Below are positions 12,551 through 31,282 of a stretch of 52,071 bases of DNA, piece after piece (within the stretch, counting starts at the first letter, position 1; each line of letters begins with the position of its first letter). The DNA is from Gammaproteobacteria bacterium (GTDB lineage: Bacteria > Pseudomonadota > Gammaproteobacteria > GCA-001735895). The stretch is taken from the NCBI GenBank assembly GCA_024232855.1, contig JAAEPH010000438.1:1-52071 (forward strand), read 5' to 3'. The notes beneath the pieces were generated by a model. The model was not told the DNA's origin and made no database searches. It saw only the letters and a program-made list of their open reading frames with translations. A program made the position numbers and the translations under genes.

Positions 12551-12718
12551 CTAGCCCGCATTATTCACCAGGGGGCGGGATGATCGCGCAGGGCTTTGGA
12601 TTCACAAGGGATTTTCTGAAGGAGCGGAATAACCTTGCGTATTTCCGACTGAAGAAAATCCCTTGTGGATTCAAAGAACAAGCGAGGGCCCGCCATCCTG
12701 GTGAATAATGCGGGCTAG
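12551..12718. repeat. Palindromic element R3, 168-bp copy
   Basis: The terminal repeats CCCGCATTATTCACCAG (12555-12571) and CTGGTGAATAATGCGGG (12698-12714) are perfect. CTAG flanks both sides (12551-12554 and 12715-12718). The interior has long imperfect dyad symmetry: a GGATTCACAAGGGATTTTC block faces GAAAATCCCTTGTGGATTC. The whole 168 bp matches, in reverse orientation, the 168-bp element at 22465. The right arm overlaps the annotated start codon of the next gene (ATG at 12708). Confidence 0.9.
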
Positions 12719-14648
12719 GAAACAACATGACGATAAAGGGGAGCCTCTCATCGTAGACAGTATTCAACCGCCGCCCCTGTTGGAAGTGAACAATCTCGCG
12801 GTCGATTTTTCGCTGAATGGCAGTCCCGTCCCCGCGATAAAGGACTTGTCTTTTACGGTTCGCCCCGGCGAATCGGTGGCCCTGGTCGGTGAATCGGGCT
12901 CGGGGAAATCGGTCACCTCGCAGGCGATCATGGGAATTCTGCCGCTCAATGCAACCATCAGTGCCGGCGAGATTCTGTTCAATCATCCCGGGTCCGGGAA
13001 AATTCTGGATATCGCGGCAATCGATGCCGGCAGCGATCAGATGCGCTCGATTCGCGGGGGTAGTATTTCGATTATCTTCCAGGAGCCGATGACGTCGCTA
13101 TCACCGGTGCACACCATTGGCGACCAGATCAGCGAAGCCCTGTTTCTGCACCGCGACGCCAGTCGTCAGGAAGGTCTGCAACTGACCCGGACCATGCTCG
13201 AACACGTCGGATTTCCGCATCCAGCGCGCGCCATGAAAATGTACCCGTTCGAGCTTTCCGGCGGGTTACGTCAGCGCGCGATGATTGCCATGGCGATGAT
13301 CTGTCATCCCGCGCTGATGATTGCCGATGAACCGACGACCGCGCTCGATGTCACGATCCAGGCGAGAATACTCAAACTAATCAAGGAGTTACAGGCCGAA
13401 CTCGACATGGCCCTGTTGCTCATCACGCACGATCTCGGAGTCGTAGCCAACATGGCGGACCAGGTGGTGGTGATGTATCACGGCAGGGTCATGGAAGCAG
13501 GCCCGTTGCAGGATCTGTTCGGCAACCCGCAGCACGATTACCTCAAGGCGCTGATGCACGCTGTGCCGCGTTTCGATCTCGAACCGGGTGAGAGACTGGT
13601 GCCGGTGCGTGAAATTCATTCGGAAATCGGTGACCTGCTGCAAAAGGAAACGCCGTCGCCGGTTAACGGCGGCGCCGGCGCGCATCTGCAGGTGCGCGAT
13701 ATCAGAAAAACCTATCAGCTGCACAGCGGCACCTGGGTTGGTTCGGAAACCCGCGAATTGCTGGCGGTCGACGGCGTATCGTTTGACGTCGAACGCGGTG
13801 AGTGCTTCGGGCTGGTGGGGGAGAGCGGTTGCGGCAAGACAACCCTCAGCAAAATCATCATGCGGGCGATCACGCCGGATCAGGGTGAAGTGATTTATCA
13901 CGACCACCAGCAGGCGATCGATGTACGTGGGCTGGAGGGGAATGACTTGCTCGCCTTTCGACGCAAGATGCAGTTTATCTTCCAGGACCCCTACAGTGCG
14001 CTCAACCCACGCATGACGGTGTTTGACATCCTGCGCGAACCGCTGGTGGTGCATGAACTCGGTGATCTCGATTACCAGCGCGAGATGGCGACCGAATTGA
14101 TGCACCTGGTCGGGCTCGACCCGAGATTTTTAAACCGCTATCCGCACAGTTTTTCGGGTGGGCAGCGGCAGCGCATCGGCATTGCGCGGGCGCTCGCGCT
14201 GCAGCCCGATCTGATCATCTGCGACGAGCCGGTTTCGGCGCTCGATGTCTCGATTCAGGCGCAGGTGTTGAACCTGCTGAAGGATTTACAGCAGGAACTG
14301 GGACTCACCTTTGTTTTTATCTCGCATAACCTGGCGGTGATTCACTACATCGCCGATCGCATTGCGGTCATGTGCCGGGGGCGTATCGTCGAGCTGGCAA
14401 CACGCGAAAAGCTGTTCGCGAACCCGGTGCATCCCTATACCCGGGCCTTGCTGTCGGCGGTGCCGCACCCGGAATTGTCGCAACCGCTGAGTTTTGACGC
14501 GATCAACGAGGCCGCCGAATCCGAGCCGGCCCTGTGGCAATTTCCGTTTACCATCGAGCACAACCAGGCAACCGATTTTATCCAGCTTGATGAGGGTCAC
14601 TACGTACGGGTCATGGCGGGTTGCAAATCGTCCGATCTGGCCGCATGA
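12708..14648 (+). CDS. Double ATPase subunit of a peptide-type ABC importer (YejF/GsiA-like)
   Basis: At 646 residues this fuses two ATP-binding domains. Domain one has [23 protein letters not shown] and ADEPTTALD; domain two has [25 protein letters not shown] and CDEPVSALD, with switch histidines ITHDLG and ISHNLA. All catalytic residues are present. Each half ends in the oligopeptide-binding C-terminal extension. It leads an operon with ATGA or TGATG overlaps to the binding protein and two permeases. The start is uncertain: the ATG at 12708 lies in the arm of element R3 with no good ribosome site, whereas AGGGGAG at 12737 is followed six bases later by an in-frame ATC (12750). Confidence 0.92.
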
Positions 14649-16552
14649 AGTCGTTGCTTGCAAGTCTGCTGCTGTTACTGACGCTGGCGCCATTGGCGTC
14701 ATCGCAGGCGATGGACGGACTCAAGGAAACGCCGATACTGCAGCAACGGGTCGATGCCGGCGAATTACCGGCGATCGACCAGCGAATCCCCCACGAAGTG
14801 CACGTGGTCAACCTGCGCCGCGACCAGGTTCCCGGTGAACAGGGTGGGCAGATGCGCCTGTTGATGGGCAAGCAAAAGGACATACGCCAGTTGGTCATCT
14901 ATGGCTATGCCCGCCTGGTCGGTTATACGCCCGAGCTGGAACTGAAGGCGGATATCCTCAAGAGTTACGAGGTCGTCGACAACCGCGTGTTTACGCTGTA
15001 CCTGCGCAAGGGGCACAAATGGTCGGATGGACACCCGTTTACCAGCGAGGATTTCCGCTATTACTGGGAGGACATCGCCACCAATCCCGAGCTGTCCAAG
15101 GGCGGGCCGCCGCCGCACCTGGTCGTCGACGGCCAACTGCCGCTGGTCGAGTATCCCGACGCCTACACGGTGCGTTACAGCTGGTCCTCTCCCAATCCCT
15201 ATTTTCTGACGATGTTGGCGGGGCCGGCTCCGTTGTACATCTACAAACCGGCGCATTACCTGCGTCGGTTTCATGCGCGTTACCAGAGCACCGAAGTGCT
15301 CGATGAAGTGATGAAGAAAGCAGGCAAGCGTAACTGGATGAGTGTTCACTTCGACCGCGACCGTCCCTACAAGGCCACCAACCCGGACCTGCCGACTCTG
15401 CAACCCTGGATGAACACCACCTATCCGCCCTCGGACCGCTTTATCTTCGAACGCAATCCCTACTACCATCGCATCGACCAGAACGGACGCCAGTTGCCCT
15501 ATATCGATTCGGTCGCGATCAACATTGCCTCGAGCAAGCTGGTGCCCGCCAAAACCGGCGCCGATGAATCGGATTTGCAGGGACGATACTTGCGCATGGA
15601 CAACTATACCTTTCTCAAGACCGGCGCGAAGCGCAGCAACTACGACGTGCGCCTGTGGAAGACCGCCAAGGGCGCGCACCTGGCGCTTTTTCCGAATCTG
15701 AATGTCAATGACTCCGTGTATCGTGAATTATTGCGCGATGTACGCTTTCGGCGCGCCCTGTCGCTGGCGATACACCGATATGAAATCAATCAGGTGGTCT
15801 ATTTCATGCTGGTCCAGGAAAGCAATAACACGGTACTGGCCGAGTCTCCCCTCTACAAACCCGAGTTTCAGAGCGACGGCATCGAGTTCGACCTCGAACA
15901 CGCCAACCGCTTGCTCGACGAACTCGGCCTGACCGGGCGCGACGATCGCGGTGTACGTTTGATGGCGGACGGCCGTCCGCTGGAAATTCTGATTCAGACC
16001 GCCGGCGAGAGCACCGAGCAAACCGACGTGCTCGAGCTGATACACGACAGCTGGTTGCAGGCCGGCGTCAAGCTGTACAGCATTCCCTCGACGCGCGAGG
16101 TTTTCCGCAACCGGATATTTTCCGGTGATGCCATCATGTCCATCTGGAGCGGCCTGGAAAACGGGGTTCCGACCGCGGACTACAGCCCCATGGATCTGGC
16201 GCCGACCTCCAAGTACCAGTACCAGTGGCCGAAGTGGGGTTCGTATTACGAGTCGAGCGGCCAGAGCGGCGAAGTCCCCGAACTGCCGGCGGCCCGGGAA
16301 CTGGTCGCGTTGAACGATCAATGGGCCCATGCCGGGACTCACCAGGAGCGCGTCGACGTCTGGCATCGAATGCTGGATATCAACCGCGAACAGATGTTTA
16401 CCATCGGTATCGTCAACCATGTGCCGCATCCGGTCGTGGTCAATAACTACCTGCACAATGTACCCGCTACCGGGTTTTACGACATAATACCCGGCGCCTA
16501 CTTCGGAATTTACAAGCCGGATACCTTCTGGTTCGAGGAGGCGAGACGCTGA
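14645..16552 (+). CDS. Periplasmic solute-binding protein, family 5 (peptide type)
   Basis: A 635-residue secreted protein. The signal peptide is [20 protein letters not shown] with likely cleavage after SSQA. Typical family 5 (OppA/YejA-like) blocks follow: FTLYLRKGHKWSDGHPFTSED near residue 120 and a late ADYSPMDLAP region. The ATG at 14645 overlaps the ATPase stop by ATGA, so the two are translationally coupled. Family 5 proteins bind oligopeptides, nickel complexes or opines. The long form and the YejABEF-like partners favour peptides, but the ligand is not readable from sequence. Confidence 0.9.
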   Translation: MKSLLASLLLLLTLAPLASSQAMDGLKETPILQQRVDAGELPAIDQRIPHEVHVVNLRRDQVPGEQGGQMRLLMGKQKDIRQLVIYGYARLVGYTPELELKADILKSYEVVDNRVFTLYLRKGHKWSDGHPFTSEDFRYYWEDIATNPELSKGGPPPHLVVDGQLPLVEYPDAYTVRYSWSSPNPYFLTMLAGPAPLYIYKPAHYLRRFHARYQSTEVLDEVMKKAGKRNWMSVHFDRDRPYKATNPDLPTLQPWMNTTYPPSDRFIFERNPYYHRIDQNGRQLPYIDSVAINIASSKLVPAKTGADESDLQGRYLRMDNYTFLKTGAKRSNYDVRLWKTAKGAHLALFPNLNVNDSVYRELLRDVRFRRALSLAIHRYEINQVVYFMLVQESNNTVLAESPLYKPEFQSDGIEFDLEHANRLLDELGLTGRDDRGVRLMADGRPLEILIQTAGESTEQTDVLELIHDSWLQAGVKLYSIPSTREVFRNRIFSGDAIMSIWSGLENGVPTADYSPMDLAPTSKYQYQWPKWGSYYESSGQSGEVPELPAARELVALNDQWAHAGTHQERVDVWHRMLDINREQMFTIGIVNHVPHPVVVNNYLHNVPATGFYDIIPGAYFGIYKPDTFWFEEARR

Positions 16553-17550
16553 TGCTCAAGTATATCCTGCGTCGACTGGTGACGATGATTCCGACCCTGC
16601 TGGTGATCAGCATGCTGGTGTTCGTGATTATCCAGTTGCCGCCGGGCGACTACCTGGAAAGTCACATCGCCGAATTGCAGAGCCAGGGAGAATCCGTCGA
16701 CGAGCAGAAAATTCAGTTTCTGCGCGAACAGTACGGGCTCGACAAACCGATGCTGCAGCAGTACCTGTTCTGGGTTGGCGGTATGCTGCAGGGCGATTTC
16801 GGATACTCTTTCGAGTACGACCTGCCGGTGACCGAGGTGGTCGGCGATCGACTGTTTCTGACCATCATCATCTCGATCGCGACTATCCTGTTTACCTGGA
16901 TGATCGCCTTTCCCATCGGCATCTACTCGGCCACGCATCAATACAGTTGGGGTGACTACGGGCTCTCAATGCTGGGTTTTCTCGGCCTGGCGACCCCAAA
17001 TTTTCTGCTCGCATTGATCATGTTGTACCTCGCCAACGTCTACTTCGGCACCAGTATCGGCGGCTTGATGGATCCCGAGTACATCGATGCAGCCTGGAGT
17101 TACGACAAGCTGCTCTCGATTCTGGAGCACCTGTGGATACCGGTGGTGGTCATCGGCACCTCGGGTACCGCCGGCATGATCAGGCGCCTGCGCGCCAACC
17201 TGCTCGATGAGCTGCAGAAACAGTACGTCACTACCGGGCGCGCCAAGGGCCTGCCGCCCGGAAAGTTGCTGTTCAAGTACCCGCTGCGGGTTGCGCTCAA
17301 TTTTTTTGTCGCCGATATCGGTAACCTGTTGCCAACCGTCATATCCGGCGCCGAAATTGTCGCCGTGGTGATGTCGTTGCCAACCACTGGCCCGATACTG
17401 CTGAGCGCCCTGCAAAGCCAGGATATGTACCTGGCCGGTTCCTTTTTGATGTTCCTGGCGCTGTTGACGGTGGTGGGCGTGCTGGTTTCGGACATTGCGC
17501 TCGCGCTGCTTGATCCGCGTATTCGCCTCGGCGGGGCGGCGAGCAAATGA
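16552..17550 (+). CDS. ABC importer permease 1 (OppB/YejB-like)
   Basis: A 332-residue inner-membrane permease with six predicted helices, starting MLKYILRRLVTMIPTLLVIS. Residues ~20-110 contain a long periplasmic loop with AELQSQGESVDEQKIQFLRE. The binding-protein-dependent transport motif GTAGMIRRLRANLLDEL then contacts the ATPase. It starts by a TGATG overlap with the binding-protein stop and ends in an ATGA overlap with the next permease. It is the OppB/DppB/YejB type. No odd features. Confidence 0.93.
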   Translation: MLKYILRRLVTMIPTLLVISMLVFVIIQLPPGDYLESHIAELQSQGESVDEQKIQFLREQYGLDKPMLQQYLFWVGGMLQGDFGYSFEYDLPVTEVVGDRLFLTIIISIATILFTWMIAFPIGIYSATHQYSWGDYGLSMLGFLGLATPNFLLALIMLYLANVYFGTSIGGLMDPEYIDAAWSYDKLLSILEHLWIPVVVIGTSGTAGMIRRLRANLLDELQKQYVTTGRAKGLPPGKLLFKYPLRVALNFFVADIGNLLPTVISGAEIVAVVMSLPTTGPILLSALQSQDMYLAGSFLMFLALLTVVGVLVSDIALALLDPRIRLGGAASK

Positions 17551-18695
17551 GCCAGCATCACTTTGTTTCGCAGGAGCCCTTCAATCCCCATTCGATCGAG
17601 GCACTGACGCCGGTTCAGGAAAAGTTCTACATGGCGTCGCAATGGCAGTTGATGTGGTGGAAGCTGCGACGCCACCGTCTCGCCGTCATCTGCGGCGTTA
17701 TCCTTGCCCTGAACTACGCCACGATCATGTTCAGCGAGGTGATCGCCCCTTATAACCTGCACACGCGCAATACCGATTATGTCTATTCGCCGCCGCAGTC
17801 AGTACACCTGTTTCACGAGGGCGAGTTTATCGGCCCCTTCGTTTACGGGCGCGGTTACGAGCTCGATATGGATATCCTCAGACGCAACTACCCGGAGAAC
17901 CGCGACCAGGTGCTGCCGCTGCGTTTTTTCTGTTCGGGCGACCCTTATCGCTTCTGGGGAATGTTCGACGCCAGTTTTCACCTGGTTTGCCCGCCGGACA
18001 ACGGCACCTTTTTCCTGCTCGGCACCGATCGCCTCGGGCGCGACATGCTTTCGCGGATCACCTACGGTGCACGCATCTCGCTGACGATAGGACTGGTCGG
18101 GATTCTGATCAGCTTCACCTTCGGTATCATCATCGGCGGGCTTGCCGGTTATTACGGGGGCTGGGTCGATGCAATTGTGCAGCGATTGATCGAAGTCATT
18201 CGCTCCTTTCCGGAGCTGCCGTTGTGGATGGCGTTGTCGGCGGTGCTGCCGGTCAACTGGAGCCCGTTGCTGATTTTCTTCGGCATTACCGTGATCCTGG
18301 CGATGCTCGACTGGACCGGGCTGGCGCGCGCGGTTCGCTCCAAGTTGCTGTCGCTGCGCGAAGAGGATTACTGTGCCGCGGCCGAGATGGTGGGCGCGAA
18401 GCCGGGCCGGATCATCGGGCGGCACCTGTTGCCGGGCTTTATGAGTCATTTAATCGCCTCGGCAACCCTTTCGGTGCCAGCCATGATTCTGGGTGAAACT
18501 GCCCTCAGTTTCCTCGGTCTCGGGCTAAGACCGCCGATTACCAGTTGGGGTGTGCTGCTGAACGAAGCGCAGAACATCAGCGTGGTTGCGCTTTATCCAT
18601 GGTTGCTGTATCCGGTGGTTCCGGTCATCCTCATAATCATTACATTCAATTTTTTCGGTGATGGATTGCGCGATGCTGCAGATCCCTACAGGTAG
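17547..18695 (+). CDS. ABC importer permease 2 (OppC/YejE-like)
   Basis: A 382-residue inner-membrane permease of the OppC/YejE type. It has an N-terminal cytoplasmic tail ending in WWKLRRHRLAVICGVILAL (first helix) and a ~100-residue periplasmic domain containing FFCSGDPYRFWGMF and LVCPPDNGTFFLLGTD. The conserved GTDRLGRDMLSRITYGARIS precedes the transport domain, and the ATPase-contacting loop is EEDYCAAAEMVGAKPGRII. Its ATG overlaps the previous stop (ATGA). The large periplasmic insertion is typical of YejE-like permeases rather than DppC. The next gene starts three bases after its stop. Confidence 0.93.
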   Translation: MSQHHFVSQEPFNPHSIEALTPVQEKFYMASQWQLMWWKLRRHRLAVICGVILALNYATIMFSEVIAPYNLHTRNTDYVYSPPQSVHLFHEGEFIGPFVYGRGYELDMDILRRNYPENRDQVLPLRFFCSGDPYRFWGMFDASFHLVCPPDNGTFFLLGTDRLGRDMLSRITYGARISLTIGLVGILISFTFGIIIGGLAGYYGGWVDAIVQRLIEVIRSFPELPLWMALSAVLPVNWSPLLIFFGITVILAMLDWTGLARAVRSKLLSLREEDYCAAAEMVGAKPGRIIGRHLLPGFMSHLIASATLSVPAMILGETALSFLGLGLRPPITSWGVLLNEAQNISVVALYPWLLYPVVPVILIIITFNFFGDGLRDAADPYR

Positions 18696-18698
18696 ACC

Positions 18699-19577
18699 AT
18701 GCAGGTAGATTTTCTGCAACGCGAAGCCTGTCCCCTGTGCCAATCGGGGCAATCACATACTTTATGCGATCTCGACTACGACGAGCCGAAGCTGAAGGCG
18801 TTTATCGAGCATTTTTACCAGGGGCGAATCGGTAAAACGACCTTGCTGCGGGGGCGCTACCGGGTAGTGAAATGCGGCCAATGCGGTTTCGTCTACCAGG
18901 ATCCGATTCTCGGTGACAAGGGCATGCAATTGTTGTACCACGACTGGGTAGACCAGGAGCATAGCCTGCAAAAGAAAAAAAATGCACCGGCAAAACTCTA
19001 TCAGCAATATGCCGGGCAAATTACGACATTATCCCGGCTCTTCGACAAGCCGCCGGCGCAAACGCGCGTGCTCGACTTCGGCATGGGCTGGGGCTATTGG
19101 TGCCGGATGGCGCAGGCGCACGGTTACGATGTCAGCGGATATGAATTGTCGTTCGAACGTTGTAAACATGCCCGCCAGATGGGGCTGAGGGTGATCGACA
19201 ACCTGGCGCAAAGCGAGAATCAATTCGATTTCATTTTTGCCAACCAGGTGTTTGAACATCTCGCTGAACCGGTACAGGTGTTCAGTGAGCTGTACCGTTG
19301 TCTCAAGGACGATGGCATAGTCTACCTGCGCGTGCCGGACGGCCGTGGTGTCGACAGCCGATTGCAACGCCACGGATGGTCACCCGGGTTCGACGCGATT
19401 CATCCTCTTGAACACATCAATTGCTTCACCCGGAAAACACTGATCGACCTTGCCGCCAGCACCGGTTTACATCCCTTTAATCCGCCGTTGCGGCTGAAAT
19501 GGGGTGGAATCCGGGGAGGAATCCGCCGCGAAATTTCGGATCGCTGGTTCACGACCCACCTGATGTTCAGGCGTTAG
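18699..19577 (+). CDS. Class I SAM methyltransferase with N-terminal zinc ribbon
   Basis: A 292-residue protein. Four cysteines in CPLCQSG (near residue 12) and CGQCGFVYQDP (near 60) form a zinc-ribbon-like head. The Rossmann methyltransferase core follows: VLDFGMGWGYW (motif I), YELSFERC, FIFANQVFEHLAEPV (motif IV) and LKDDGIVYLRVPDG. Methyltransferases with such heads often act on sugars or small molecules in surface-glycan clusters. Its start is three bases after the permease gene, so it is probably read with the importer operon. Its TAG stop (19575-19577) lies in the TTAG flank of element R4. Confidence 0.85.
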   Translation: MQVDFLQREACPLCQSGQSHTLCDLDYDEPKLKAFIEHFYQGRIGKTTLLRGRYRVVKCGQCGFVYQDPILGDKGMQLLYHDWVDQEHSLQKKKNAPAKLYQQYAGQITTLSRLFDKPPAQTRVLDFGMGWGYWCRMAQAHGYDVSGYELSFERCKHARQMGLRVIDNLAQSENQFDFIFANQVFEHLAEPVQVFSELYRCLKDDGIVYLRVPDGRGVDSRLQRHGWSPGFDAIHPLEHINCFTRKTLIDLAASTGLHPFNPPLRLKWGGIRGGIRREISDRWFTTHLMFRR

Positions 19578-19779: not shown

Positions 19780-22419
19780 TCAGGCGTTAGCGAGCAAATG
19801 CTGGAAATGCTCGTTGCCTTGCTGCATCTCGGCGAAGGAACCCTTGTCGAGGAGTTTGCCGCGTTCCAACACCATGACGGTGTCGAATTGTTCGGCCAGT
19901 TGTACGCGCCCGAGTACCCATAGAATACCCTTTTGTGCCATCGCGTTTCTGACGTTTACGATGAGACGGCGTTCACTGGACGGATCGAGACTCGACAGGG
20001 CCTCGTTTACCACCAGCATATCCGGTGCCTTCAGCAATGCGCGCGCCAGCCCCAGTTTCTGACGCTGAATCGAAGACAGGCGACCGCCGGCGACGCCCAC
20101 TTCGTAGTGCAGGCCTGCCTCGATGATGTCGTTGCGCAATTCCAGGCTTTCGACCACATTGGCGATCAGGTTGTTTATCTTCCGCTGGGCATGCGCCTGC
20201 CCGTAGGCGAGTTTGCCGAAGAGGATATTATCCTGGATTGAAATGCGCGGGTTGTAGTTGGCCTCGTCGAAAAACTCGATGCCGAGATCTTCTTTTGCAG
20301 CAAGTTGATGGATCTTGCGGCGAGCCTCGAGGATACGCTGCCGGATGGGCTTGGTAATCAAACCCAGTCGATGCCTCGCGACGACGATTCTGAGTGGCAG
20401 TGAGATGAGTCGCTGCTTGTCGTCGGCCGGTAGATTTTCAAGGCCGTGCTGGCGTGATTGCTGTAACAACTTGTTGAATTCCGGCAGATCGTCGGCGTCT
20501 ATGAAGCTGAATTGTTCAAACAGCTCGCTGTCCGGTTCGACATCCGAAAACAGGTCAAGCATGATCTCCGTAATCTGCAGACCGGCGTTGAGGAACTCGT
20601 CATTGAGACCGCATTCAACGAGAATGGCCTGGATGGCCGGCGTTTGGATCAGTTGCTCCACATTGACGTTGTCACCGTAAACCGTGCCAAACAGCAGGTT
20701 TTCGTAAACGGTCATGTTGAGATTATACTTTTCGTGATCAAAGGGTTCGACCAGGCGCTCGATTTCCGGCTCTCTAAACTTGTCACGAAGCTGCATCCGC
20801 GCCTGCATGATGCGGTCGACGAGATCGAGGCTTTCTGATTGCTGCACGAACGAAAACAGACCGAACTGGTAGATCTCTTCGTCCAGTTCGACCATTTGCA
20901 ATATTCTGATGATTTCCGAACTCAGGTGCCGATGGCTGTCGAGTCCGAGCGCCAGATAATCTATCCAGTCCTCGTCATAGCGATCGGGCGAATTCCCGGA
21001 TCGCTGCGCGAGACTGCGTTCATGCTCGATTTGCTTGTCCACGGCCGCCTGTTCCGGCTTGACCGGTTGATGCTTGAGTCCATAACAAATGTTGTCATAG
21101 ACCGAGCCGTTGAACATGAAGGCCGCCGGGCCGACATAACCGAAACGTCTGCCGATTATGGCTTCGGGCAATTCCTCCATCTTGCTAACGCCGAGGGTGA
21201 TGTTGCCCGAAGTCGGATTGATCAGACGTGCCATCAGGAAAGCGAGTTCTTCCTTGCCGCTGTTGCCCAGCCCCACCGCGGCGCAATGCTGATTGATCGG
21301 AAATTTGAAACTGGTGCCGTCGATGCTGAAGTAGAGTCCGTCCTCGGAGTAGCGGATATTGTTTACCTGAATTTCGCGGTCGGGCAACTCGAGTGACTCG
21401 GGACGCTGATCGATGATGCTGGTATCGAGCATGTTGATCGGATTGAACTGCTGGATGACCTGGCTGTACTTGACACGAATATCCTCCAGGCGCTGGTAGT
21501 AGCGTAGCAGCTCTTTCCAGGGTCCGGAGAGATCCTTGTAAGCCACCAGCACGGCGACCATGGATCCGATCGAAAGGTCGCCTCGCAATACGAAATAGCC
21601 GCCCGCCGAGTAAAAGAAAAACGGCGTCAGCTGGGCGATGAAATTGTTCAGGAACTTGATGAAAAACTTGCGCTTGTATATCGCGAAACGTATCAGGTAA
21701 ATTTTGCCCAGGCGTTGGCTGATATGCGCGCGTTCGAAGTGGCTGGTATCGTTGGCGTGCACTTCCTCGATGCCGGAGATGGTTTCACCGATACGCCCGG
21801 AGAGGTTGCGCGCCACCGCGACGCGTTCCTTGGTGAGCGCATTGACGCGTTTCTGTAACCGGGGAATGACAATCAGCTGGAAAGGGTAGAGCGCGATCGC
21901 CGCCAGGCCAAGGAGGACATCCTGCTGAAAGATAAAAAACAGGTAGGTCAGCAGGGTGCCGCCCTGGAACACCGGCAGGGTGAAGGATTCACCGATGAAT
22001 TCGCCGAGCGGTTCGGTTTCGGCGGTTATCATCGGAATCAGCTCGCCCGAGGACACGCGTTTGAAATGAGGCTTCGGGAACAGCAGGATACGCCGGTAAA
22101 GCTCAAAGCGCAGGCGGCGCAACAGGTGTTCGCCGAGCGAACCTCGATAGACGTTCAAAAGGTACTTGAGGCCGCCGCTGCAAAGCACCACCAGCAAGAA
22201 TGTGAAACTGAGCAGCATCAGGTAGTTCAGGTTATCCAGTTCGTAACCGAAGATCGCCTCGGGGTAATCCGAGCCCGTGCCTTCGAGCAGGTTGATGATT
22301 CTCTTGGGAAGTTCGAGCGTAACGTAAACCAGTGGCAGGGACGCCAACGATATCAGCACCAGCAGAATCTGATCCTTTTTGCTGTGAGTCAGAATATACT
22401 TGAAAAGCGATGGTTCCAT
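19780..22419 (-). CDS. Exporter-type ABC protein with degenerate, expanded nucleotide-binding domain
   Basis: An 879-residue protein starting MEPSLFKYILTHSKKDQ; GGGA precedes this ATG closely, and a longer start at 22455 is possible. Residues ~1-320 form a six-helix exporter membrane domain. The ATPase part is unusual. Walker A is GLGNSGKEE (383-391) with Glu in place of Ser/Thr. The signature is LSSIQ (781-785). Walker B is MLVVNEALSSLD with Asn for Asp but the Glu kept. The switch position is Gly (837) instead of His. Between Walker A and the signature lie ~395 residues instead of ~100, with three related segments: SVYDNICYG, TVYENLLFG and SIQDNILFG. It may couple weakly to ATP or act as a sensor. 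It faces glycosyltransferase genes. Confidence 0.85.
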   Translation of the reverse strand: MEPSLFKYILTHSKKDQILLVLISLASLPLVYVTLELPKRIINLLEGTGSDYPEAIFGYELDNLNYLMLLSFTFLLVVLCSGGLKYLLNVYRGSLGEHLLRRLRFELYRRILLFPKPHFKRVSSGELIPMITAETEPLGEFIGESFTLPVFQGGTLLTYLFFIFQQDVLLGLAAIALYPFQLIVIPRLQKRVNALTKERVAVARNLSGRIGETISGIEEVHANDTSHFERAHISQRLGKIYLIRFAIYKRKFFIKFLNNFIAQLTPFFFYSAGGYFVLRGDLSIGSMVAVLVAYKDLSGPWKELLRYYQRLEDIRVKYSQVIQQFNPINMLDTSIIDQRPESLELPDREIQVNNIRYSEDGLYFSIDGTSFKFPINQHCAAVGLGNSGKEELAFLMARLINPTSGNITLGVSKMEELPEAIIGRRFGYVGPAAFMFNGSVYDNICYGLKHQPVKPEQAAVDKQIEHERSLAQRSGNSPDRYDEDWIDYLALGLDSHRHLSSEIIRILQMVELDEEIYQFGLFSFVQQSESLDLVDRIMQARMQLRDKFREPEIERLVEPFDHEKYNLNMTVYENLLFGTVYGDNVNVEQLIQTPAIQAILVECGLNDEFLNAGLQITEIMLDLFSDVEPDSELFEQFSFIDADDLPEFNKLLQQSRQHGLENLPADDKQRLISLPLRIVVARHRLGLITKPIRQRILEARRKIHQLAAKEDLGIEFFDEANYNPRISIQDNILFGKLAYGQAHAQRKINNLIANVVESLELRNDIIEAGLHYEVGVAGGRLSSIQRQKLGLARALLKAPDMLVVNEALSSLDPSSERRLIVNVRNAMAQKGILWVLGRVQLAEQFDTVMVLERGKLLDKGSFAEMQQGNEHFQHLLANA

Positions 22420-22464
22420 AATTTCCCGGTTGATGATTCTGATTGCCCGCAGCATCAGGCATGG

Positions 22465-22632
22465 CTAGCCCGTAAATCTCACCAGGATGACGGGGCCTCG
22501 CTTGTTCTTTGAATCCACAAGGGATCTTCTTCAGTCGGAAATACGCACTGTTATTCCGCTCCTTCAGAAAATCCCTTGTGAATCCAAAGCCCTGCGCGAT
22601 CATCCCGCCCCCTGGTGGGATTTACGGGCTAG
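22465..22632. repeat. Palindromic element R5, 168-bp copy inverted relative to R3
   Basis: The arms CCCGTAAATCTCACCAG (22469-22485) and CTGGTGGGATTTACGGG (22612-22628) pair with one mismatch, and CTAG flanks both sides. Length and interior match R3 in reverse complement, including GGATCTTCTTCAGTCGG, TTATTCCGCTCCTTCAG and CCAAAGCCCTGCGCGAT blocks. It lies between the divergent ABC protein gene and the glycosyltransferase, so it may separate or modify their promoters. A long open frame across it in the glycosyltransferase frame is repeat-encoded and not taken as part of that gene. Confidence 0.9.
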
Positions 22633-22691
22633 CAAGGCATACCGGGCGGGTGTACTATCGCGCATCATTCGATTTATATCAAATACAGGTT

Positions 22692-23939
22692 ATGCCCCCC
22701 AGGCTTGCTATCGTTCTCAAGGGTTACCCGCGCCTATCGGAAACCTTTATTGCGCAGGAAATCCGGGCGCTCGAAATGCGCGGATTCGAATTGTGCATCT
22801 TTTCGTTGCGTCATCCTTACGATCCCGCCAGTCATCCGATACACGCCGAAATCGAGGCCCCGGTCTATTATTTGCCCGAGTACGTCCATGACGACCCGAG
22901 CCGGGTCCTCGGCGCCGCGCTGAGGCTATGCTGGAAAGCGGGGTTCTGGCGGGCATTGCTGAGCTTTGGCGCGGACCTGTTGCATGAGCCGACCCGCAAT
23001 CGTATGCGGCGATTCGCCCAGGCCCTGGTGATGGCGCGCGAGATGCCTTCGTCGGTAGAGCATTACTACGCTCATTTCATGCATACGCCATCATCCGTGT
23101 GCTACTACGCTTCCATCATCAACCGGCAATCCTGGAGTATTTCTGCGCATGCCAAGGATGTCTGGACGATTAGCGAACGCGAGTTGCGTAAAAAACTGAG
23201 CGCCAGCGACTGGGTTGTCACCTGTACCGCCGCCAATGCAAGTTACCTGTCGAGTTTGAGCACGGTCGCCGACAAGGTGAGTCTGCTCTATCACGGTCTT
23301 GATTTCTCGCGCTTTGACCGCAATGACGCGGTAGCCGCGGAACGCGATGGTAACGATGCAGATGACGCGGTGCGCCTGATCAGCGTGGGGCGTGCGGTCG
23401 ACAAGAAAGGTTACGACGTCCTGCTCGCGGCGCTCGCCGAGTTACCGCCGACACTGTGTTGGCGCTTCGTTCACATCGGTGGCGGTGAATTGTTCGAGGC
23501 ACTGCAGGCGCAGGCGCGCGTACTGGGCCTCGAAGACCGCATCGAGTGGCTTGGCGCGCTGCCGCAAACCGAGGTTCTGGCGCAGTACCGCAAGGCAGAC
23601 CTGTTCGTACTACCGAGCAAGATTTCGGCCGATGGTGACCGCGATGGCTTGCCCAATGTGCTGATGGAAGCACAAAGCCAGGCGTTGGCCTGTCTGTCCA
23701 CGAATATATCGGGAATTCCGGAACTGATCATTCATGCTGAAAGCGGCTGGCTGGTCGAGCAAAAGGATAACCGGGAACTCGCTGCTGCGCTTGAGCGGTT
23801 GATATCCGACCCCGAATTGCGCTCCCGCCTGGGGCAGGCCGGATACGCCAGGGTGACGCAGGAATTCTCGATGGAGCGCGGCATCGACAAGCTGGTGCAG
23901 CGTTTGCAGCAGTCCGTGGAGCGGGGTCACGGTCGATGA
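22692..23939 (+). CDS. Glycosyltransferase family 4 protein (WcaL-like)
   Basis: A 415-residue GT-B enzyme beginning MPPRLAIVLKGYPRLSETF; the GYPRLSETFI start is typical of colanic-acid WcaL-type transferases. The C-terminal nucleotide-sugar half has LISVGRAVDKKGYDVLL, WLGALPQTEVLAQYRKADLFVLPS and DGLPNVLMEAQSQALACLST, including the E-x7-E-like region. I chose the ATG at 22692 because the upstream part of the frame lies in element R5. Its end overlaps the next gene by ATGA. It likely adds a sugar to a surface glycan at the cytoplasmic face; donor and acceptor are unknown. Confidence 0.9.
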   Translation: MPPRLAIVLKGYPRLSETFIAQEIRALEMRGFELCIFSLRHPYDPASHPIHAEIEAPVYYLPEYVHDDPSRVLGAALRLCWKAGFWRALLSFGADLLHEPTRNRMRRFAQALVMAREMPSSVEHYYAHFMHTPSSVCYYASIINRQSWSISAHAKDVWTISERELRKKLSASDWVVTCTAANASYLSSLSTVADKVSLLYHGLDFSRFDRNDAVAAERDGNDADDAVRLISVGRAVDKKGYDVLLAALAELPPTLCWRFVHIGGGELFEALQAQARVLGLEDRIEWLGALPQTEVLAQYRKADLFVLPSKISADGDRDGLPNVLMEAQSQALACLSTNISGIPELIIHAESGWLVEQKDNRELAAALERLISDPELRSRLGQAGYARVTQEFSMERGIDKLVQRLQQSVERGHGR

Positions 23940-24532
23940 GGCTGGTGTTACTGCGGCACGGCATGACCGCGTGGAACCTGGAGAAGCGCATCCAGGGCCG
24001 TATCGATCAGCCCTTGTGTGACGCTGGCCGACAGCAGCTGCGGGCGCTGACCGTGCCTGCCGATTACCTCGGCGACCGCTGGTATTGCAGCCCGTTACGG
24101 CGCGCCGTCGAAAGTGCCGAGCTGATGGCCCTGCGCGATGTTCACGTCGAGCCCGCGTTGATCGAAATGGACTGGGGCGACTGGGAGGGAGAGGTGCTCA
24201 AACCACTGCGCAAACGCATCGGCGAGCCGATGCGCACGAATGAACGACGTGGACTCGATTTCCGCCCGCCTGGCGGGGAGAGCCCGCGACAGGTGCAGGC
24301 GCGCTTACAACCCTGGTTACGGCGGATCGCGAAAACCGGGGAGAATACCGGCGCGGTCGTGCACAAGGGAATTATTCGTTGTATTTATGCGCTCGCCTGC
24401 CACTGGGACATGTGCGGTGAAACACCGGTCGATTTCGCCTGGGACGCGCTCCACCAGTTCGAACTGGACCCCGACGGAACATTGCTCAACAGCTACAACG
24501 CCATTCCGTTGGCTTCGAAGGGGACAGATTAA
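23936..24532 (+). CDS. Histidine phosphatase family protein
   Basis: A 198-residue protein of the phosphoglycerate-mutase-like branch. The LRHG motif (H8) is in MRLVLLRHGMTAWN; SPLRRAVESAEL, EMDWGDWEGE and VVHKGIIRCIYAL complete the catalytic pocket. In the last, Lys sits where most members have Ser/Thr before the second catalytic His-Gly. ATGA overlap couples it to the glycosyltransferase, so a sugar-phosphate substrate is plausible. The final residues ASKGTD and the stop are encoded by a 24-bp palindrome at 24520-24543, so the C-terminus looks replaced or extended by repeat sequence. Confidence 0.85.
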   Translation: MRLVLLRHGMTAWNLEKRIQGRIDQPLCDAGRQQLRALTVPADYLGDRWYCSPLRRAVESAELMALRDVHVEPALIEMDWGDWEGEVLKPLRKRIGEPMRTNERRGLDFRPPGGESPRQVQARLQPWLRRIAKTGENTGAVVHKGIIRCIYALACHWDMCGETPVDFAWDALHQFELDPDGTLLNSYNAIPLASKGTD

Positions 24533-24557: not shown

Positions 24558-25337
24558 TTAGTCGGGTGTTTTCCAGATCGTGGGAGCATCGATCCAGGCG
24601 GCGGCCGGATGCTCCTGCAGGAATGCGAGCAGGTTTTCGAGGAAACGCCAGACCGCTTCGTCTTGCACCAGGTGATGGGTGAGTATGCCGGTCGGTTCGT
24701 CGAAGTCGCGATATCCGAGGCGTCGCGCGATGAGGTGCTGGACTAAAATTGCGATTGCCGGGTAGATGCCGATGAAACCGCCTTTGTGACGCCAGTGCAC
24801 CGGGTCCAGGTGCGTGTTCACCTGCAACAGGTGTGGCGAGGGATTGGCCATGCGGCGCACTTTCATGGTTGATATACCGCTGATGCCAATCGCGGGAAGG
24901 TGCCCTAGCACGCGTTCGTCAATGCGATTCCAGGGTGGCACCAGTACCGGCGTGAAGCGCGCGGCGAAGTTTTGTTGAAGAATCTGATAACCCCTTGTCA
25001 GGTCGGCAACGATATCCGTGGTCGCGCGCATGCCGCCGAGTTCCAGTTTGCGTACGCCGGGTGGGGCGTGGCTGTCGTGGGCATAGCCGTGCTGCAGTAC
25101 GCAGCTGTGAGCATGCGCTTGCAGGTAGTCGCCCAGTCCGGTTTCGAGCCGCGCGGGAATGACGGCAAGCGCGAGCGGCGCCGCGTACTGCCGCCCCTGC
25201 CGTAGTAGCCGTTCGAGCCGTTGGCTGGCTTTGACAGCGTCGTCATCGCGCCACCAGAAACGCGCCTGCAGACCGGCATCTCCCCAGTTATCGAGTTCGC
25301 GGCGTAACCAGTCCCAGGCCTGCGCCGGTGCGATCAA
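24558..25337 (-). CDS. Polysaccharide deacetylase family protein
   Basis: A 259-residue protein with NodB-like features: FWWRDDDAV (metal and base aspartates near residue 27), VLQHGYAHDSH (His motif), VLVPPWNRID and a late ILTHHLVQDEAVW. There is no signal peptide, so it appears cytoplasmic or works with lipid-linked sugars at the inner leaflet. Its ATG overlaps the stop of the preceding glycosyltransferase by ATGA, so it is the third gene of a tight minus-strand operon. It probably removes acetyl or other N-acyl groups from a sugar built by the neighbouring transferases; that substrate is inferred. Confidence 0.85.
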   Translation of the reverse strand: MIAPAQAWDWLRRELDNWGDAGLQARFWWRDDDAVKASQRLERLLRQGRQYAAPLALAVIPARLETGLGDYLQAHAHSCVLQHGYAHDSHAPPGVRKLELGGMRATTDIVADLTRGYQILQQNFAARFTPVLVPPWNRIDERVLGHLPAIGISGISTMKVRRMANPSPHLLQVNTHLDPVHWRHKGGFIGIYPAIAILVQHLIARRLGYRDFDEPTGILTHHLVQDEAVWRFLENLLAFLQEHPAAAWIDAPTIWKTPD

Positions 25338-26473
25338 CTGCCTGCCTCCGTTGCTGCGAGCCAGCGTGACACCATCAGCGCGCTGTTGCGGGCGCCGTCG
25401 AGGTTTGCCGCAAACGCCGAATGTCCCTTATCCGCCTTCGCCATTGCCCGGGCCAGGGTGTCGGCGTTCAAGTCCTGTTGCGCAAGCGCAACCAGGCGCC
25501 CGCGATCCTGCAGCCGCAGTGCGCGCAAGGTTTGCTCGATCTCGTCCGCTTCGGCGAAGGGAATGACAACGGACGCGGTGCCGCTGCTGAGAATGTCGGT
25601 GACCGTGTTGTAACCGGCCTGCGAAATCGATAGGTGGGCGCGTTTGACCAGTTCGCTGAAATCGGGCCGATTGCGCTCGACGCGGATACCAGGCCCGGCC
25701 CGGCGCTGCAGCTCTTCGAACTTCGCCGCCGAAACCGCGGGACTGACCAGCAGCCGCCAGCGCAGGTTATGCAATATCGACAGGGGTTTTGCTGCAATCG
25801 CAGTCTGCAAAATTCGCAATCCGGTGGCACTGCCGCCCGCTGAAACCAGCACTTCGCCGTTGCCTTCATCTGCCGCTGGGGACATAGGTTCGCTGGCGCA
25901 GATGTAGCCGCTGTAGTAAAGCTTGTTTTCGATGCGCTGTGCGGGTGCAAAGCTGTCGGCCAGCTGCGCGACAGTTTCGTCACCGTGCACCAGTACGCGA
26001 TCGTAGTATTTCTCGATCAACTCGCATATTTCGCGGTTGCGCCCTGGCTTCGACTTGGGTTGCAGAATGTCCCGAATCGATGCAATCACCTGCACGCAGC
26101 TGTCGCTGTCGCGGGCGGCCTGCAGTAGCGGCAGCAACTCGAAGCGCAACATGCGTCTGCCGAAAGGGAAGGTTTCCGTGATCAATACCTGCGGCGCGAA
26201 GGCCGTGAACAGGTCGAGCAACTGCTGCCTGCGCCGATCGCGCCATGCATCGTCGATTTCGTTGCCATCGGCATCGAGCAGATGCTTGAAACTGCTATCG
26301 GCGCTGTATAGAGGGGGAAGTTGTCGAACTCGAACGGTGCCCGGCGTGGCTACCGCCCGCGGCATTCCACCGGATACCAGTTCCACCTGGAATTCCTGCT
26401 GCGCGAGCGCGGCTGCCAGCTGCAGTGAGCGTTGCAGGTGACCAATGCCGAGCAGGTGCTGGACATGGATCAA
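25334..26473 (-). CDS. MurG-like predicted glycosyltransferase (COG4671 type)
   Basis: The earliest conventional start is a TTG at 26473, giving 379 residues beginning IHVQHLLGIGHLQRSLQLA. The nucleotide-sugar half includes VLVSAGGSATG, ISQAGYNTVTDILSSGTASV and VIPFAEADEIEQTLRA, the GT28-like core. The family normally starts a few residues earlier (SKPRRVLIHVQHL). Those residues are present in frame, and a CCGGAG is followed after six bases by an in-frame ATC at 26494, so a rare ATC start is possible. It is a paralogue of the gene just upstream and is coupled by ATGA to the deacetylase. Confidence 0.85.
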   Translation of the reverse strand: MIHVQHLLGIGHLQRSLQLAAALAQQEFQVELVSGGMPRAVATPGTVRVRQLPPLYSADSSFKHLLDADGNEIDDAWRDRRRQQLLDLFTAFAPQVLITETFPFGRRMLRFELLPLLQAARDSDSCVQVIASIRDILQPKSKPGRNREICELIEKYYDRVLVHGDETVAQLADSFAPAQRIENKLYYSGYICASEPMSPAADEGNGEVLVSAGGSATGLRILQTAIAAKPLSILHNLRWRLLVSPAVSAAKFEELQRRAGPGIRVERNRPDFSELVKRAHLSISQAGYNTVTDILSSGTASVVIPFAEADEIEQTLRALRLQDRGRLVALAQQDLNADTLARAMAKADKGHSAFAANLDGARNSALMVSRWLAATEAGS

Positions 26474-26508
26474 TACGCGACGGGGCTTGCTGATCGATAA
26501 CTCCGGAG

Positions 26509-27714
26509 TCAGGCGGTAACGATAGCCTGTTCGTTGGGCTCGAGGTATTCGCGCACCATTTCGGCAATATTTTCGTGACCCGCTAGCAGGTCCGAGATTT
26601 TCGCGAAAGAAGGGTTGGGCTGGTTGGGCAGGGCGCGCAAGGCCGCCACCATTTGCTGCGCGGGACGTTCGCCCGCCGGATTGAGCATGCTGGCCAGGCC
26701 GAGTTTGACGGCGCGCTCGGCGCGAATCAGCTGCTCCTGGCGGGGTACCGAACGCGGCACGATGAGGGCGCGTTTGTCGAGCGTCAGGATTTCACAAAAG
26801 GTGTTGTAGCCGCCCATCGCCACGATCGCCACCGACTTTTTCATCAACAGCTCGATATGGCTGTCGAAGGTGAGGATTTCGACTTTTTCGAGCGCTTTGC
26901 AGCGATCGTGAAATTCCTGTTGTTCGAAGGCCTGCATGAAGGGCCCGGTCACGATAATGGCGCGATAGGGCAGTTCCGGTTCGGTTTCGTAGGCACGGAT
27001 GACCCAGTCGAGCATATCGACTCCGTCGCCGCCACCGCCGGCCGTCACCAGGATAAACGGTTCGCTGGGGTCGATCGGCGCCACCCGGTTGGGTTCGTTG
27101 GGAACTTCGCGCTCGAGGTAACCGGTATACGATATCCGGGCGAGAGTGGATGGCGACAGGTCGATGCCTGCGATCGGGTTGCCCATTTCCCTGAGGCCGT
27201 ACACCCAGATATCGTCATAGATGTCCTCGAGCACCGGCAGGACTTTCTTGCGTTCCCACTCCTGTTTTAACTGCTCGGTTTCGTCCATCACGTCACGCAA
27301 TCCAAGCACGTTGACGCAGCCCGCCTGTTTCAGCATTTCGAGGGTGGACCTGACTTCGCCCTGCAGGCCGGTGGGTTCCTTGTCGACGAGAAATATATCG
27401 GGTTTGAAGCTGACCGCGGTGTGGTAAATGATCGATTCACGCATCGCCAACGTCTGTTCCAGGTCGATATGCAGGCCGAGCGAAGTGTATTCACCGTTCT
27501 TTAACTTGATGACCCCGGGAATACGGACGAAATCGACACGCGCCCTGAAATCGAAGCTGCCGATGATCGGGGAGCCCGACAGGATCAGTACCGACAACCC
27601 CTTGTATCGAGCAACCAGCGAATGGGCAATCGAGCGACAACGCCGCAGGTGACCCAGGCCAAACGAATCGTGGCTATAGATTAGAATCCTGGACTGTTTG
27701 AGTCGCTCGGTCAT
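26509..27714 (-). CDS. MurG-like predicted glycosyltransferase (COG4671 type), first of operon
   Basis: A 401-residue protein starting MTERLKQSRILIYSHDSFGL; the GLGHLRRCRSIAHSL block matches the GIGHLQRSLQLAAAL of its neighbour. The donor-binding half contains FILVTAGGGGDGVDMLDW, SVAIVAMGGYNTFCEILTL and RSVPRQEQLIRAERA. I preferred the ATG at 27714 over one 57 bases upstream because homologous sequence begins there. Two adjacent transferases of one family suggest addition of two similar sugars or a heterodimer. The gene opens the minus-strand operon that ends in the deacetylase. Confidence 0.87.
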   Translation of the reverse strand: MTERLKQSRILIYSHDSFGLGHLRRCRSIAHSLVARYKGLSVLILSGSPIIGSFDFRARVDFVRIPGVIKLKNGEYTSLGLHIDLEQTLAMRESIIYHTAVSFKPDIFLVDKEPTGLQGEVRSTLEMLKQAGCVNVLGLRDVMDETEQLKQEWERKKVLPVLEDIYDDIWVYGLREMGNPIAGIDLSPSTLARISYTGYLEREVPNEPNRVAPIDPSEPFILVTAGGGGDGVDMLDWVIRAYETEPELPYRAIIVTGPFMQAFEQQEFHDRCKALEKVEILTFDSHIELLMKKSVAIVAMGGYNTFCEILTLDKRALIVPRSVPRQEQLIRAERAVKLGLASMLNPAGERPAQQMVAALRALPNQPNPSFAKISDLLAGHENIAEMVREYLEPNEQAIVTA

Positions 27715-27866
27715 ATTAGCGGTGTGGCAGTACTTTCGACGCAGACTACACTGAAATCGGTTTGAACGCACTGACGTTATGGCAATTTAAACAGGCAGAT
27801 CTGGAATTATTGACAAGCGGTCCGGTCATAGCATCATAATACTGAACAAGCCGGTGGGAGCCACCC

Positions 27867-28257: not shown

Positions 28258-28471
28258 TTAGCCCGCATATCTCACCAGGATGGCGGGCCCTCACTTGTTC
28301 TTTGAATTCACAAGGTAGTTATTCAGGCGGGTTACGCACTGTTATTCCGCTCCTTCAGAAAATCCCTTATGAACCCAAAGCCCTGCGCGATGATGTGCAA
28401 GGAAGCACGAATGCGGTGGAGGCAGGAGCCGAGAACCGCCATCCCGTCCCCTGGTGAGATATGCGGGTTAG
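28258..28471. repeat. Palindromic element R7 with TTAG target duplication
   Basis: Perfect 17-bp terminal repeats CCCGCATATCTCACCAG (28262-28278) and CTGGTGAGATATGCGGG (28451-28467) lie between two TTAG tetranucleotides (28258-28261 and 28468-28471). TTAG is not its own complement, so this is the clearest target-site duplication of the family. The interior resembles R5 for ~130 bp and then holds ~60 bp not in R5 (around 28395-28440). The right TTAG contains the stop codon of the HD-domain gene on the minus strand (TAA at 28470-28468). Confidence 0.9.
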
Positions 28472-29124
28472 GCAGGACTACGCAGGTATTCCAAATAACG
28501 CGTCAGGTTGTTGCGCGCCTGTTGCTCATAGCGCTCGAAGAAGAAATCGGACAGGAAAAAGCGGGGGCGGGCCAACAACCTGCGTTGAAATCCGGTCTTG
28601 TTCAGTTGGTAATCGGCGTCGCTGAGATGAGGATTTTCAGCCCGTAGATTCAGACTGTCACGCAGGAATTCGTCCCAGGACAGCGCGAAACCCGATAAAT
28701 CGATATCGACCATGTAGATGCTGTCAGCGTCTTCGAGCGAGTTACCGTCATGCCGCGTCGCCACGATCAGTCGAGCGATCAACTGGCGCATCTCGTCAGC
28801 GTGAGCGTCGGCGGATAATTCCAGGTAAAGTTCTGCGCTCATGGCTTCGTTATCGCGCCGACCGGGTTCGAGGATGACATCGTGCATCCAGATCGCGATT
28901 TCCAGGGCGTCGGGGAAAGCAGTCAGCGACTCGCACTGCTCGAACATGGCCATGCAGTGTTCGATGTGTGCGAGTGTGTGGTAGTGTCGGTGCGATTCGT
29001 TATAGCCGGTTAACAGACGCTGGTGAATCGCGGCGCTCTCGTCGGTGGCGCCTGCGACAAGGTTGCGTTGCCAGAGCGCCTTAAAACGACTGAGCTGAGT
29101 GAATTTCTCGGTCGCGGGCGCCAA
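28468..29124 (-). CDS. HD-superfamily predicted phosphohydrolase (COG4339 type)
   Basis: About 218 residues from a TTG at 29124. It contains HYHTLAHIEHC, IWMHDVILEP (the HD pair), ATRHDGNSL and MVDIDLSGF, the metal-binding pattern of COG4339-type HD proteins. TTG is preferred because an AGGGA lies five bases upstream and it avoids overlap with the preceding gene; an ATG at 29178 would overlap that gene by 53 bases. The family is uncharacterised; HD proteins typically hydrolyse phosphoesters or nucleotides. Its place next to a cyclic-nucleotide-binding gene makes a nucleotide substrate attractive but unproven. Confidence 0.75.
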   Translation of the reverse strand: MAPATEKFTQLSRFKALWQRNLVAGATDESAAIHQRLLTGYNESHRHYHTLAHIEHCMAMFEQCESLTAFPDALEIAIWMHDVILEPGRRDNEAMSAELYLELSADAHADEMRQLIARLIVATRHDGNSLEDADSIYMVDIDLSGFALSWDEFLRDSLNLRAENPHLSDADYQLNKTGFQRRLLARPRFFLSDFFFERYEQQARNNLTRYLEYLRSPA

Positions 29125-29125
29125 T

Positions 29126-29635
29126 CTAGTCCCTGGCCTGTTGATTCGCCTGTCGCTGAAGCAATTGAAGCTGTTCATCGGTGCGTGTCAGCTTGTCGCT
29201 GAGCATGCGGATAACATCGAGTGCGACCTCGGAATTTTCGCGCAGTATGCGGAAAAACATTTCGGCCGTTATTTTCATTGCGAGCAGGTTTCCGTTTGCG
29301 ATCAGTGTCGCGATTCGCGGCGTGTTGTTGAGCAGGCCGATTTCACCGATCAGTTGATTTTGCGACAGGGTGAACGTCACGATAGGCCCTTTTTCAGTTT
29401 CGGTAACGATATCGACCGCGCCTTCCATGATGACGTAGGCGTAGTCGGCGCTATCGCCGCTATTGAAGACGATGTCGCCGTCCTGGAAAGAAACCATCTC
29501 GCTGGCGAAAGCGAGGAGCTTCAATTTCGAGGTTTCCATCTTGGCAAACATCGGGATTTTTCGAAGTAAATCTGTCTCTTCTGCGAGGTCCAAGTGCCTA
29601 GCTCCAAAGGTTGAATCGGCGTGAACTACGGTCAA
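29126..29635 (-). CDS. Stand-alone cyclic-nucleotide-binding domain protein
   Basis: A 169-residue protein made almost only of one cNMP-binding beta-roll. DLLRKIPMFAKMETSKLKLL leads in. FNSGDSADYAYVIMEGAVDI and NQLIGEIGLLNNTPRIATLI form the phosphate-binding cassette (GEIGLL then R-A-T/S). The final ~35 residues (SDKLTRTDEQLQLLQRQ) are a charged helix, possibly a coiled coil, and there is no helix-turn-helix. It is therefore not a CRP-like transcription factor but may bind a partner when cAMP or cGMP is present. It directly precedes the HD gene and is probably co-transcribed. Confidence 0.85.
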   Translation of the reverse strand: MTVVHADSTFGARHLDLAEETDLLRKIPMFAKMETSKLKLLAFASEMVSFQDGDIVFNSGDSADYAYVIMEGAVDIVTETEKGPIVTFTLSQNQLIGEIGLLNNTPRIATLIANGNLLAMKITAEMFFRILRENSEVALDVIRMLSDKLTRTDEQLQLLQRQANQQARD

Positions 29636-30581: not shown

Positions 30582-30635
30582 TTAGCCCGCAGCAGGAAGC
30601 CCTCGTGACGTAAAACGGTGAGCGATGGGGGCTAG
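30582..30635. repeat. Palindromic element R8, degenerate short copy
   Basis: TTAG then CCCGC (30582-30590) on the left and CGGTGAGCGATGGGGG then CTAG (30616-30635) on the right mark a 54-bp shrunken copy. GTGACGTAAAACGGTGAGCG matches, in reverse complement, the left end of R1. The right CTAG supplies the TAG stop of napC (30634-30632 on the minus strand). The rest of 30449-30581 has no gene; it includes the small palindrome CGTACATTTTGTACG at 30542-30556. Confidence 0.65.
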
Positions 30636-31252: not shown

Positions 31253-31282
31253 AACGCTGTCCCAGGTTTGCTATTGCGAAGG

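Follow-up and report, generated by a model that had tools for sequence, protein, structure and literature searches.

A conserved ABC exporter-family protein with a tripled helical subdomain and eroded ATPase motifs in a surface-glycan gene cluster, and its possible regulation by cyclic nucleotides

The window, a 52,071-nucleotide stretch of DNA from an uncultured gammaproteobacterium, encodes on its minus strand (19780..22419) a pseudo-ATPase protein of the ABC exporter family that has full-length homologues in other genomes. The open reading frame extends over 19780-22455 and 891 residues, but the conserved start, an ATG at 22419 (MEPSL...), gives a protein of 879 residues, and residues are numbered throughout in this 879-residue form. 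Pfam recognized a transmembrane domain in residues 1-330 (21430..22419, minus strand; ABC_membrane, PF00664, E = 7e-19) and a split ABC ATPase domain (PF00005, E = 2e-9). This order, ABC_membrane and then the fold of an ABC nucleotide-binding domain (NBD), places the protein by descent among the type IV ABC exporters. Its best matches among curated models and PDB sequences were MsbA-like homodimeric type IV exporters, and the model for the MsbA lipid A exporter itself (TIGR02203) scored 169.8, below its cut-off of 602. Conservation within the family is highest in the membrane domain, with a mean pairwise identity of 52% versus 25-46% in segments of the ATPase domain. We describe the protein as a pseudo-ATPase that belongs to the ABC exporter family, is conserved, and presumably forms a homodimer like the related half-transporters.

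The gene lies within a set of surface-glycan genes. Upstream, on the plus strand, are genes for a nucleotide-sugar epimerase/dehydratase (11515..12525), an Opp-type importer (12708..18695) composed of a double ATPase (12708-14648), an SBP_bac_5 protein (14621-16552) and two permeases (16552-17550 and 17547-18695), and a SAM-dependent methyltransferase (18699..19577). The other side of the ABC gene begins on the plus strand with a GT4-type glycosyltransferase (22509..23939) and a histidine phosphatase (23936..24532) and continues on the minus strand with a polysaccharide deacetylase homologue (24558..25337; identified by the annotation of alphaproteobacterial cluster genes, itself without a Pfam match), two glycosyltransferases with a GT28 C-terminal domain (25334..27771; 25334-26473 and 26509-27771), a conserved gene without a Pfam match (28468..29178), and, adjoining the latter, a gene for a stand-alone cyclic-nucleotide-binding protein (29126..29635). 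A pattern resembling HD phosphohydrolases (YHTLAHIEHCM...WMHDVI) was seen by eye in the product of 28468-29178, which could be a second-messenger or nucleotide hydrolase. The survey of gene neighbours that the earlier note had proposed revealed homologues of this surface-glycan set in related loci of the genus and in rhizobial loci; the importer, the glycosyltransferases, and the ABC protein lie in a common neighbourhood in both gamma- and alphaproteobacteria, with identities between the window and rhizobia of 68-71% for permease B and 35-38% for the ABC protein. The glycan cluster is flanked by an MsrPQ-like pair of oxidoreductase-molybdopterin and ferric-reductase-like genes (9904-11484, plus strand) and by NapC/NapB/ferredoxin genes of a periplasmic nitrate reductase cluster (30632-32640, minus strand).

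The ATPase domain of the protein is strongly stretched, as the earlier note had reported: Walker A and the signature motif are separated by about 400 residues, and by 362-473 (median 401) across 42 family members, versus 103-107 residues in 19 canonical exporters from related genomes. Within this interval, the earlier note had recognized three segments of similar pattern, and [VI]x[DE]N[IL]xxG was indeed found exactly three times in the protein (residues 440, 571, and 728); composition shuffles contained a mean of 0.011 occurrences, and none of 20,000 contained three. Copy 1 (residues 405-529, 20833..21207, minus strand) comprises the native Q-loop strand and the start of the helical subdomain, bears the motif SVYDNICYG (21079-21105, minus strand), and has lost the Q-loop Gln. 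Copy 2 (residues 533-620, 20560..20823, minus strand) carries TVYENLLFG at 20686-20712, and copy 3 (residues 690-772, 20104..20352, minus strand) carries SIQDNILFG at 20215-20241 and runs into the signature helix. Copies 1 and 2 are not followed by a signature, in agreement with the view that only the third segment reaches one.

The copies were compared by hhalign, using as profiles non-overlapping pieces of the family alignment. Copies 2 and 3 matched over 79 columns (Prob 99.3, E = 1.9e-20, score 100.5), and copy 1 matched both copy 2 (Prob 84, E = 7e-6, score 34) and copy 3 (Prob 80, E = 1.5e-5, score 32); the highest scores against copy 3 were 15 and 19 for column-shuffled controls of copies 2 and 1, respectively, and 12 for windows of the membrane domain. 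With a smaller, earlier alignment, the match between copies 1 and 2 was weak when taken alone (Prob 23). Copy 1 also matched the Q-loop region of the canonical NBD profile (Prob 97.5), and copy 3 together with the signature and Walker B matched the canonical helical subdomain, signature, and Walker B (Prob 99.5), indicating that the native Q-loop end lies in copy 1 and the native signature end after copy 3. The proposed duplication of the coupling region was therefore borne out as three homologous copies, with the extent of the unit redrawn to the Q-loop strand and the beginning of the helical subdomain; the homology of copies 2 and 3 also takes in the long helix in front of this unit. In exporters, this segment is the part of the NBD that touches the coupling helices of the membrane domain. 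A wider unit continuing through the signature helix and Walker B, suspected from the resemblance of 'QARxxLR...LVEPFD' to 'LARALL...VVNEALSSLD', was unsupported by profile comparison (segments sw1 and sw2b against sw3, Prob at most 5). Three NILFG-type repeats were also present in an outlying clade (L104, 46-2634; L105, 1-2619) whose membrane domain is too divergent to match the query, which suggests that the triplication is older than the split from this clade.

The predicted structure of residues 331-879 (pLDDT 69, pTM 0.57) holds one complete NBD, to which 238 of the 239 residues of the ComA NBD could be aligned (Z = 24.2, rmsd 2.4). This alignment spans residues 13-547 of the model, and the extra copies fall inside it in an arrangement that is not reliable in this model; the full-length AlphaFold model, made from seven sequences, was too poor for use (pLDDT 47), and the placement of the extra copies could not be read from it. 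The insert (residues 450-718, 20266..21072, minus strand) found no relative when searched against Pfam and PDB sequences. The earlier note had set against its own proposal the picture of one normal ATPase domain carrying an unrelated inserted domain. Of this picture, the complete NBD fold is present in the model; an unrelated insert is ruled out by the homology that copies 2 and 3 show to one another and to the native segment.

Almost every motif needed for ATP hydrolysis is altered, and the replacements at Walker A, Walker B, and the switch position are those that the earlier note had listed. Walker A (residues 383-390, 21250..21273, minus strand) reads GLGNSGKE instead of GxxGxGK[ST], with Glu replacing Ser/Thr and Asn replacing a P-loop Gly. 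The signature (residues 781-785, 20065..20079, minus strand) reads LSSIQ instead of LSGGQ, and Walker B (residues 803-807, 19999..20013, minus strand) reads VVNEA, in which the Asp has become Asn (N805) and the Glu is kept. At the switch (H-loop) position (19909..19911, minus strand), Gly837 replaces His. Beyond what the earlier note had listed, the window protein lacks the Q-loop Gln and retains Lys389 of Walker A and Glu806 at the catalytic position. The loss extends over the family and does not reflect local errors, as not one of the 42 aligned proteins has all of the catalytic residues; canonical motifs in close homologues, which the earlier note had considered a sign of such errors, were absent from them. 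An intact LSGGQ occurs in none of the 42, the switch His in only two (L077 and L078), and the Walker B Asp only in some lineages, and the Walker A Lys is missing from the rhizobial members. In three relatives (L097, L098, and L100), GKS is still present in Walker A and DE in Walker B, and one (L081) retains Asp-Glu with LSAGQ. Most members within the genus of the window conserve the Lys of Walker A and the Glu position of Walker B, so that nucleotide binding or slow turnover may persist there. Parsimony without regain, applied to one approximate FastTree phylogeny rooted with canonical exporters, indicated about five losses of the Walker A Lys, nine of the Walker B Asp, seven of the Glu position, seven of the switch His, and loss of the signature Gly784 in about eight lineages. 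This repeated erosion fits a function that does not require hydrolysis, and judging from the motifs, most family members are likely to have no productive ATP hydrolysis.

The expansion was surveyed in relatives, as had been suggested, and a full-length or near-full-length protein was present in 25 of the 30 further genus genomes that the search covered. None of five genomes from other genera of the same family carried it, and it was rare in the gammaproteobacterial sample (4/274); matches were found in 32 of the 398 Pseudomonadota genomes sampled, counting outlying forms and those with a transmembrane domain (TMD) only. The 42 aligned members extend to alphaproteobacteria, and 260 plasmids, mostly rhizobial, had matches with at least 80% query cover. 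The search of viral contigs returned a single homologue, which was TMD-only. Pairwise dN/dS, at partly saturated synonymous sites, was about 0.06-0.12 for the whole protein; the membrane domain gave 0.04-0.07, and most values for the insert fell within 0.04-0.17. We regard it as nearly certain that this is a functional, conserved family.

The ABC protein appears to be accompanied by a cyclic-nucleotide receptor. The protein encoded at 29126-29635, whose sole Pfam domain is PF00027, is a homologue of a domain that is fused to the ABC protein elsewhere: four fetched members (L029, L040, L042, and L043) have a C-terminal cyclic-nucleotide-binding domain, and the window protein is 42% identical to that of L040. 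In its phosphate-binding stretch, GEIGLLNNTPRIAT, the Glu and the Arg that we take to be typical of cyclic-nucleotide binding are preserved. In rhizobia, the domain is encoded by a separate gene directly downstream of the ABC gene, and genes for adenylate/guanylate cyclases are clustered with it in Sinorhizobium meliloti, R. etli (two), and Phyllobacterium; the genome of the window encodes cyclases elsewhere, with none seen in the window cluster. Taken together, these gene arrangements make it probable that the ABC protein is under cyclic-nucleotide control. The separate S. meliloti protein (L045, 11839-12303) is annotated as a Crp/Fnr transcriptional regulator; it has 154 residues, only PF00027, and no DNA-binding domain.

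In the annotated S. meliloti strain R28, the cluster of the ABC gene fits the region from smb21252 to smb21271 by gene order, and a 'glycosyltransferase family protein' stands 13 places after a GT4 gene, agreeing with smb21252 and smb21265. The smb numbers were inferred by counting genes from the adenine deaminase, which we take to be SMb21278, and the count takes in one tag missing from the table; on this count, the ABC protein would be SMb21269 and the cyclic-nucleotide-binding protein SMb21270. A study of this organism reported that nine genes of the smb21252-smb21271 interval are required for the phazolicin-protecting polysaccharide (PPP), an uncharacterised polysaccharide of the cell surface that guards S. 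meliloti against phazolicin, and that the adenylate cyclase gene cyaA was also depleted in the Tn-seq screen (PMC10128002). Whether the ABC gene belongs to these nine is not stated in the main text (PMC10128002). Seven of the nine PPP genes are induced by a predator (PMC10315480). The window contains a gene set of the PPP type, with homologues of the importer, both GT28 glycosyltransferases (GT28a and GT28b), the GT4 glycosyltransferase, the ABC protein, and the cyclic-nucleotide-binding protein, the correspondence resting on the smb numbers obtained by counting; it differs from the PPP cluster (PMC10128002) in belonging to an uncultured gammaproteobacterium and in having no clustered cyclase or lyase that we could see.

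A surface-polysaccharide cluster with an adjoining cyclic-nucleotide receptor points to a glycan movement or assembly step that is probably controlled by a second messenger rather than driven by burning ATP. That the ABC protein works in a glycan pathway is very likely. From the protein alone, the earlier note had guessed at a flippase, a scaffold, or a sensor; the gene neighbourhood, the fused or adjacent cyclic-nucleotide-binding domain, the clustered cyclases, and the PPP locus narrow this to a regulated component of glycan translocation or assembly. The reading that we favor, somewhat more probable than not, would be a cyclic-nucleotide-regulated pseudo-ATPase of the ABC exporter family that serves the translocation or assembly of a surface glycan without normal ATP hydrolysis. 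In such a system, the membrane domain would move, or organise the export of, the glycan or glycolipid intermediate that the clustered glycosyltransferases produce, and the enlarged NBD would no longer drive a hydrolysis cycle but act as a docking and gating element. The cyclic-nucleotide-binding partner may set this gate or dock in response to cAMP or cGMP, and energy might come from elsewhere, such as a glycan gradient, the proton-motive force, or pushing by synthesis. A bolder version, which we put forward only tentatively and consider rather unlikely, is that an exporter was turned into a cyclic-nucleotide-gated glycan channel or secondary transporter independent of ATP hydrolysis, its NBD having become the gate through tandem amplification of the coupling subdomain.

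The eroded catalytic motifs would suit a scaffold or sensor anchored in the membrane, which would organise the glycosyltransferases and report the cyclic-nucleotide level without itself moving a substrate, the repeats being docking sites. The clustering of glycosyltransferases is consistent with this possibility, and the extra helical copies and the fused receptor domain would suit a docking platform. However, a membrane domain that is the best-conserved part of the protein, at 52% identity and a dN/dS of 0.04-0.07, is unexpected for a mere anchor, and relatives consisting of the TMD alone persist; we consider this scaffold or sensor doubtful, and lean slightly toward transport over pure scaffolding. 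It is improbable that the protein exports the glycan in the normal ATP-driven way, with divergent motifs that can still bind ATP and hydrolyse it slowly. Lys389 and Glu806 are retained in most members of the genus, GKS and DE in some relatives, and the NBD fold is complete in the predicted model, yet the signature Gly-Gly and the switch His are gone almost everywhere and the Mg-site residues in most members, and rhizobia have dispensed with the Walker A Lys altogether while their gene neighbourhood is unchanged.

Still less probable is an obligate heterodimer with a canonical ABC half-transporter encoded elsewhere, on the pattern of TmrAB or TAP. Known degenerate heterodimer partners have fewer altered motifs than the window protein, in which nearly every motif is changed. 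Among the genes of the conserved cluster, we saw no homologous half-transporter; the only other ABC ATPase there is that of the Opp-type importer. Heterodimers with a single degenerate site are common among exporters, and TmrAB, TAP, and TM287/288 resemble the window protein in the altered catalytic residues of an exporter NBD, but in them degeneration is confined to one of the two sites, the other being contributed by a partner (PMC7756269). The window cluster shows no such partner. Although the motifs look eroded, a decaying gene, a frameshift, a sequencing error, or an assembly artefact has a negligible chance of explaining a frame that is present in 25 of the 30 other genus genomes, is open in more than 20 related species and into the alphaproteobacteria, and has a low dN/dS, with strong purifying selection in every segment.

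ATP hydrolysis defines ABC transporters, and even the degenerate representatives known so far usually retain one working site or more. Like the MsbA-like type IV exporters MsbA, BmrA, and ComA, the window protein combines an exporter-type membrane domain and one NBD of the usual fold in a single chain; it differs from them in being about 300 residues longer, in having two further copies of the helical-subdomain segment, and in having lost the catalytic motifs. A precedent for an exporter membrane domain that works without ATP hydrolysis is offered by SbmA/BacA (SLiPT), SbmA being an ABC-exporter membrane domain run by the proton gradient and devoid of an NBD (PMC13316013). The window protein is not of this NBD-less kind, since it keeps and enlarges its NBD, and Pfam assigns its membrane domain to ABC_membrane. 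Databases already list the proteins as generically named ABC proteins, and the polysaccharide locus has been published; within the part of the literature covered, we found no published account of the subdomain triplication, of catalytic residues lost across the family, or of a link to cyclic nucleotides. The family is common in plant symbionts and also occurs in uncultured gammaproteobacteria, with its membrane domain under strong selection and catalysis apparently discarded. If the favored reading is true, it would become testable whether a second messenger instead of ATP can run an ABC exporter, and the protein could serve as an entry point to a rhizobial surface polysaccharide, still uncharacterised, that is linked to antibiotic tolerance and perhaps to symbiosis.

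Several genomes with the ABC protein also encode relatives of its membrane domain without any ATPase domain. A first group of these TMD-only proteins (L044, 8773-10011; L107, 3543-4817; L108, 3016-4227; L109, 2932-4197; L076, 451-1695; L112, 1-1146) has about 380-425 residues and 38-45% identity to the membrane domain. Its genes follow copper-resistance genes in L107 and L108 (multicopper oxidase and CopB, by Pfam), similarly by eye in L109, and copper-protein genes in L044, so that copper operons may include an ABC-type membrane protein that is independent of ATP. A second, more distant group (L031, 6305-7372; L032, 5599-6588; L110, 3413-4444; L111, 3427-4422) has 330-356 residues and 27-31% identity, and its neighbours are apparently unrelated to copper.
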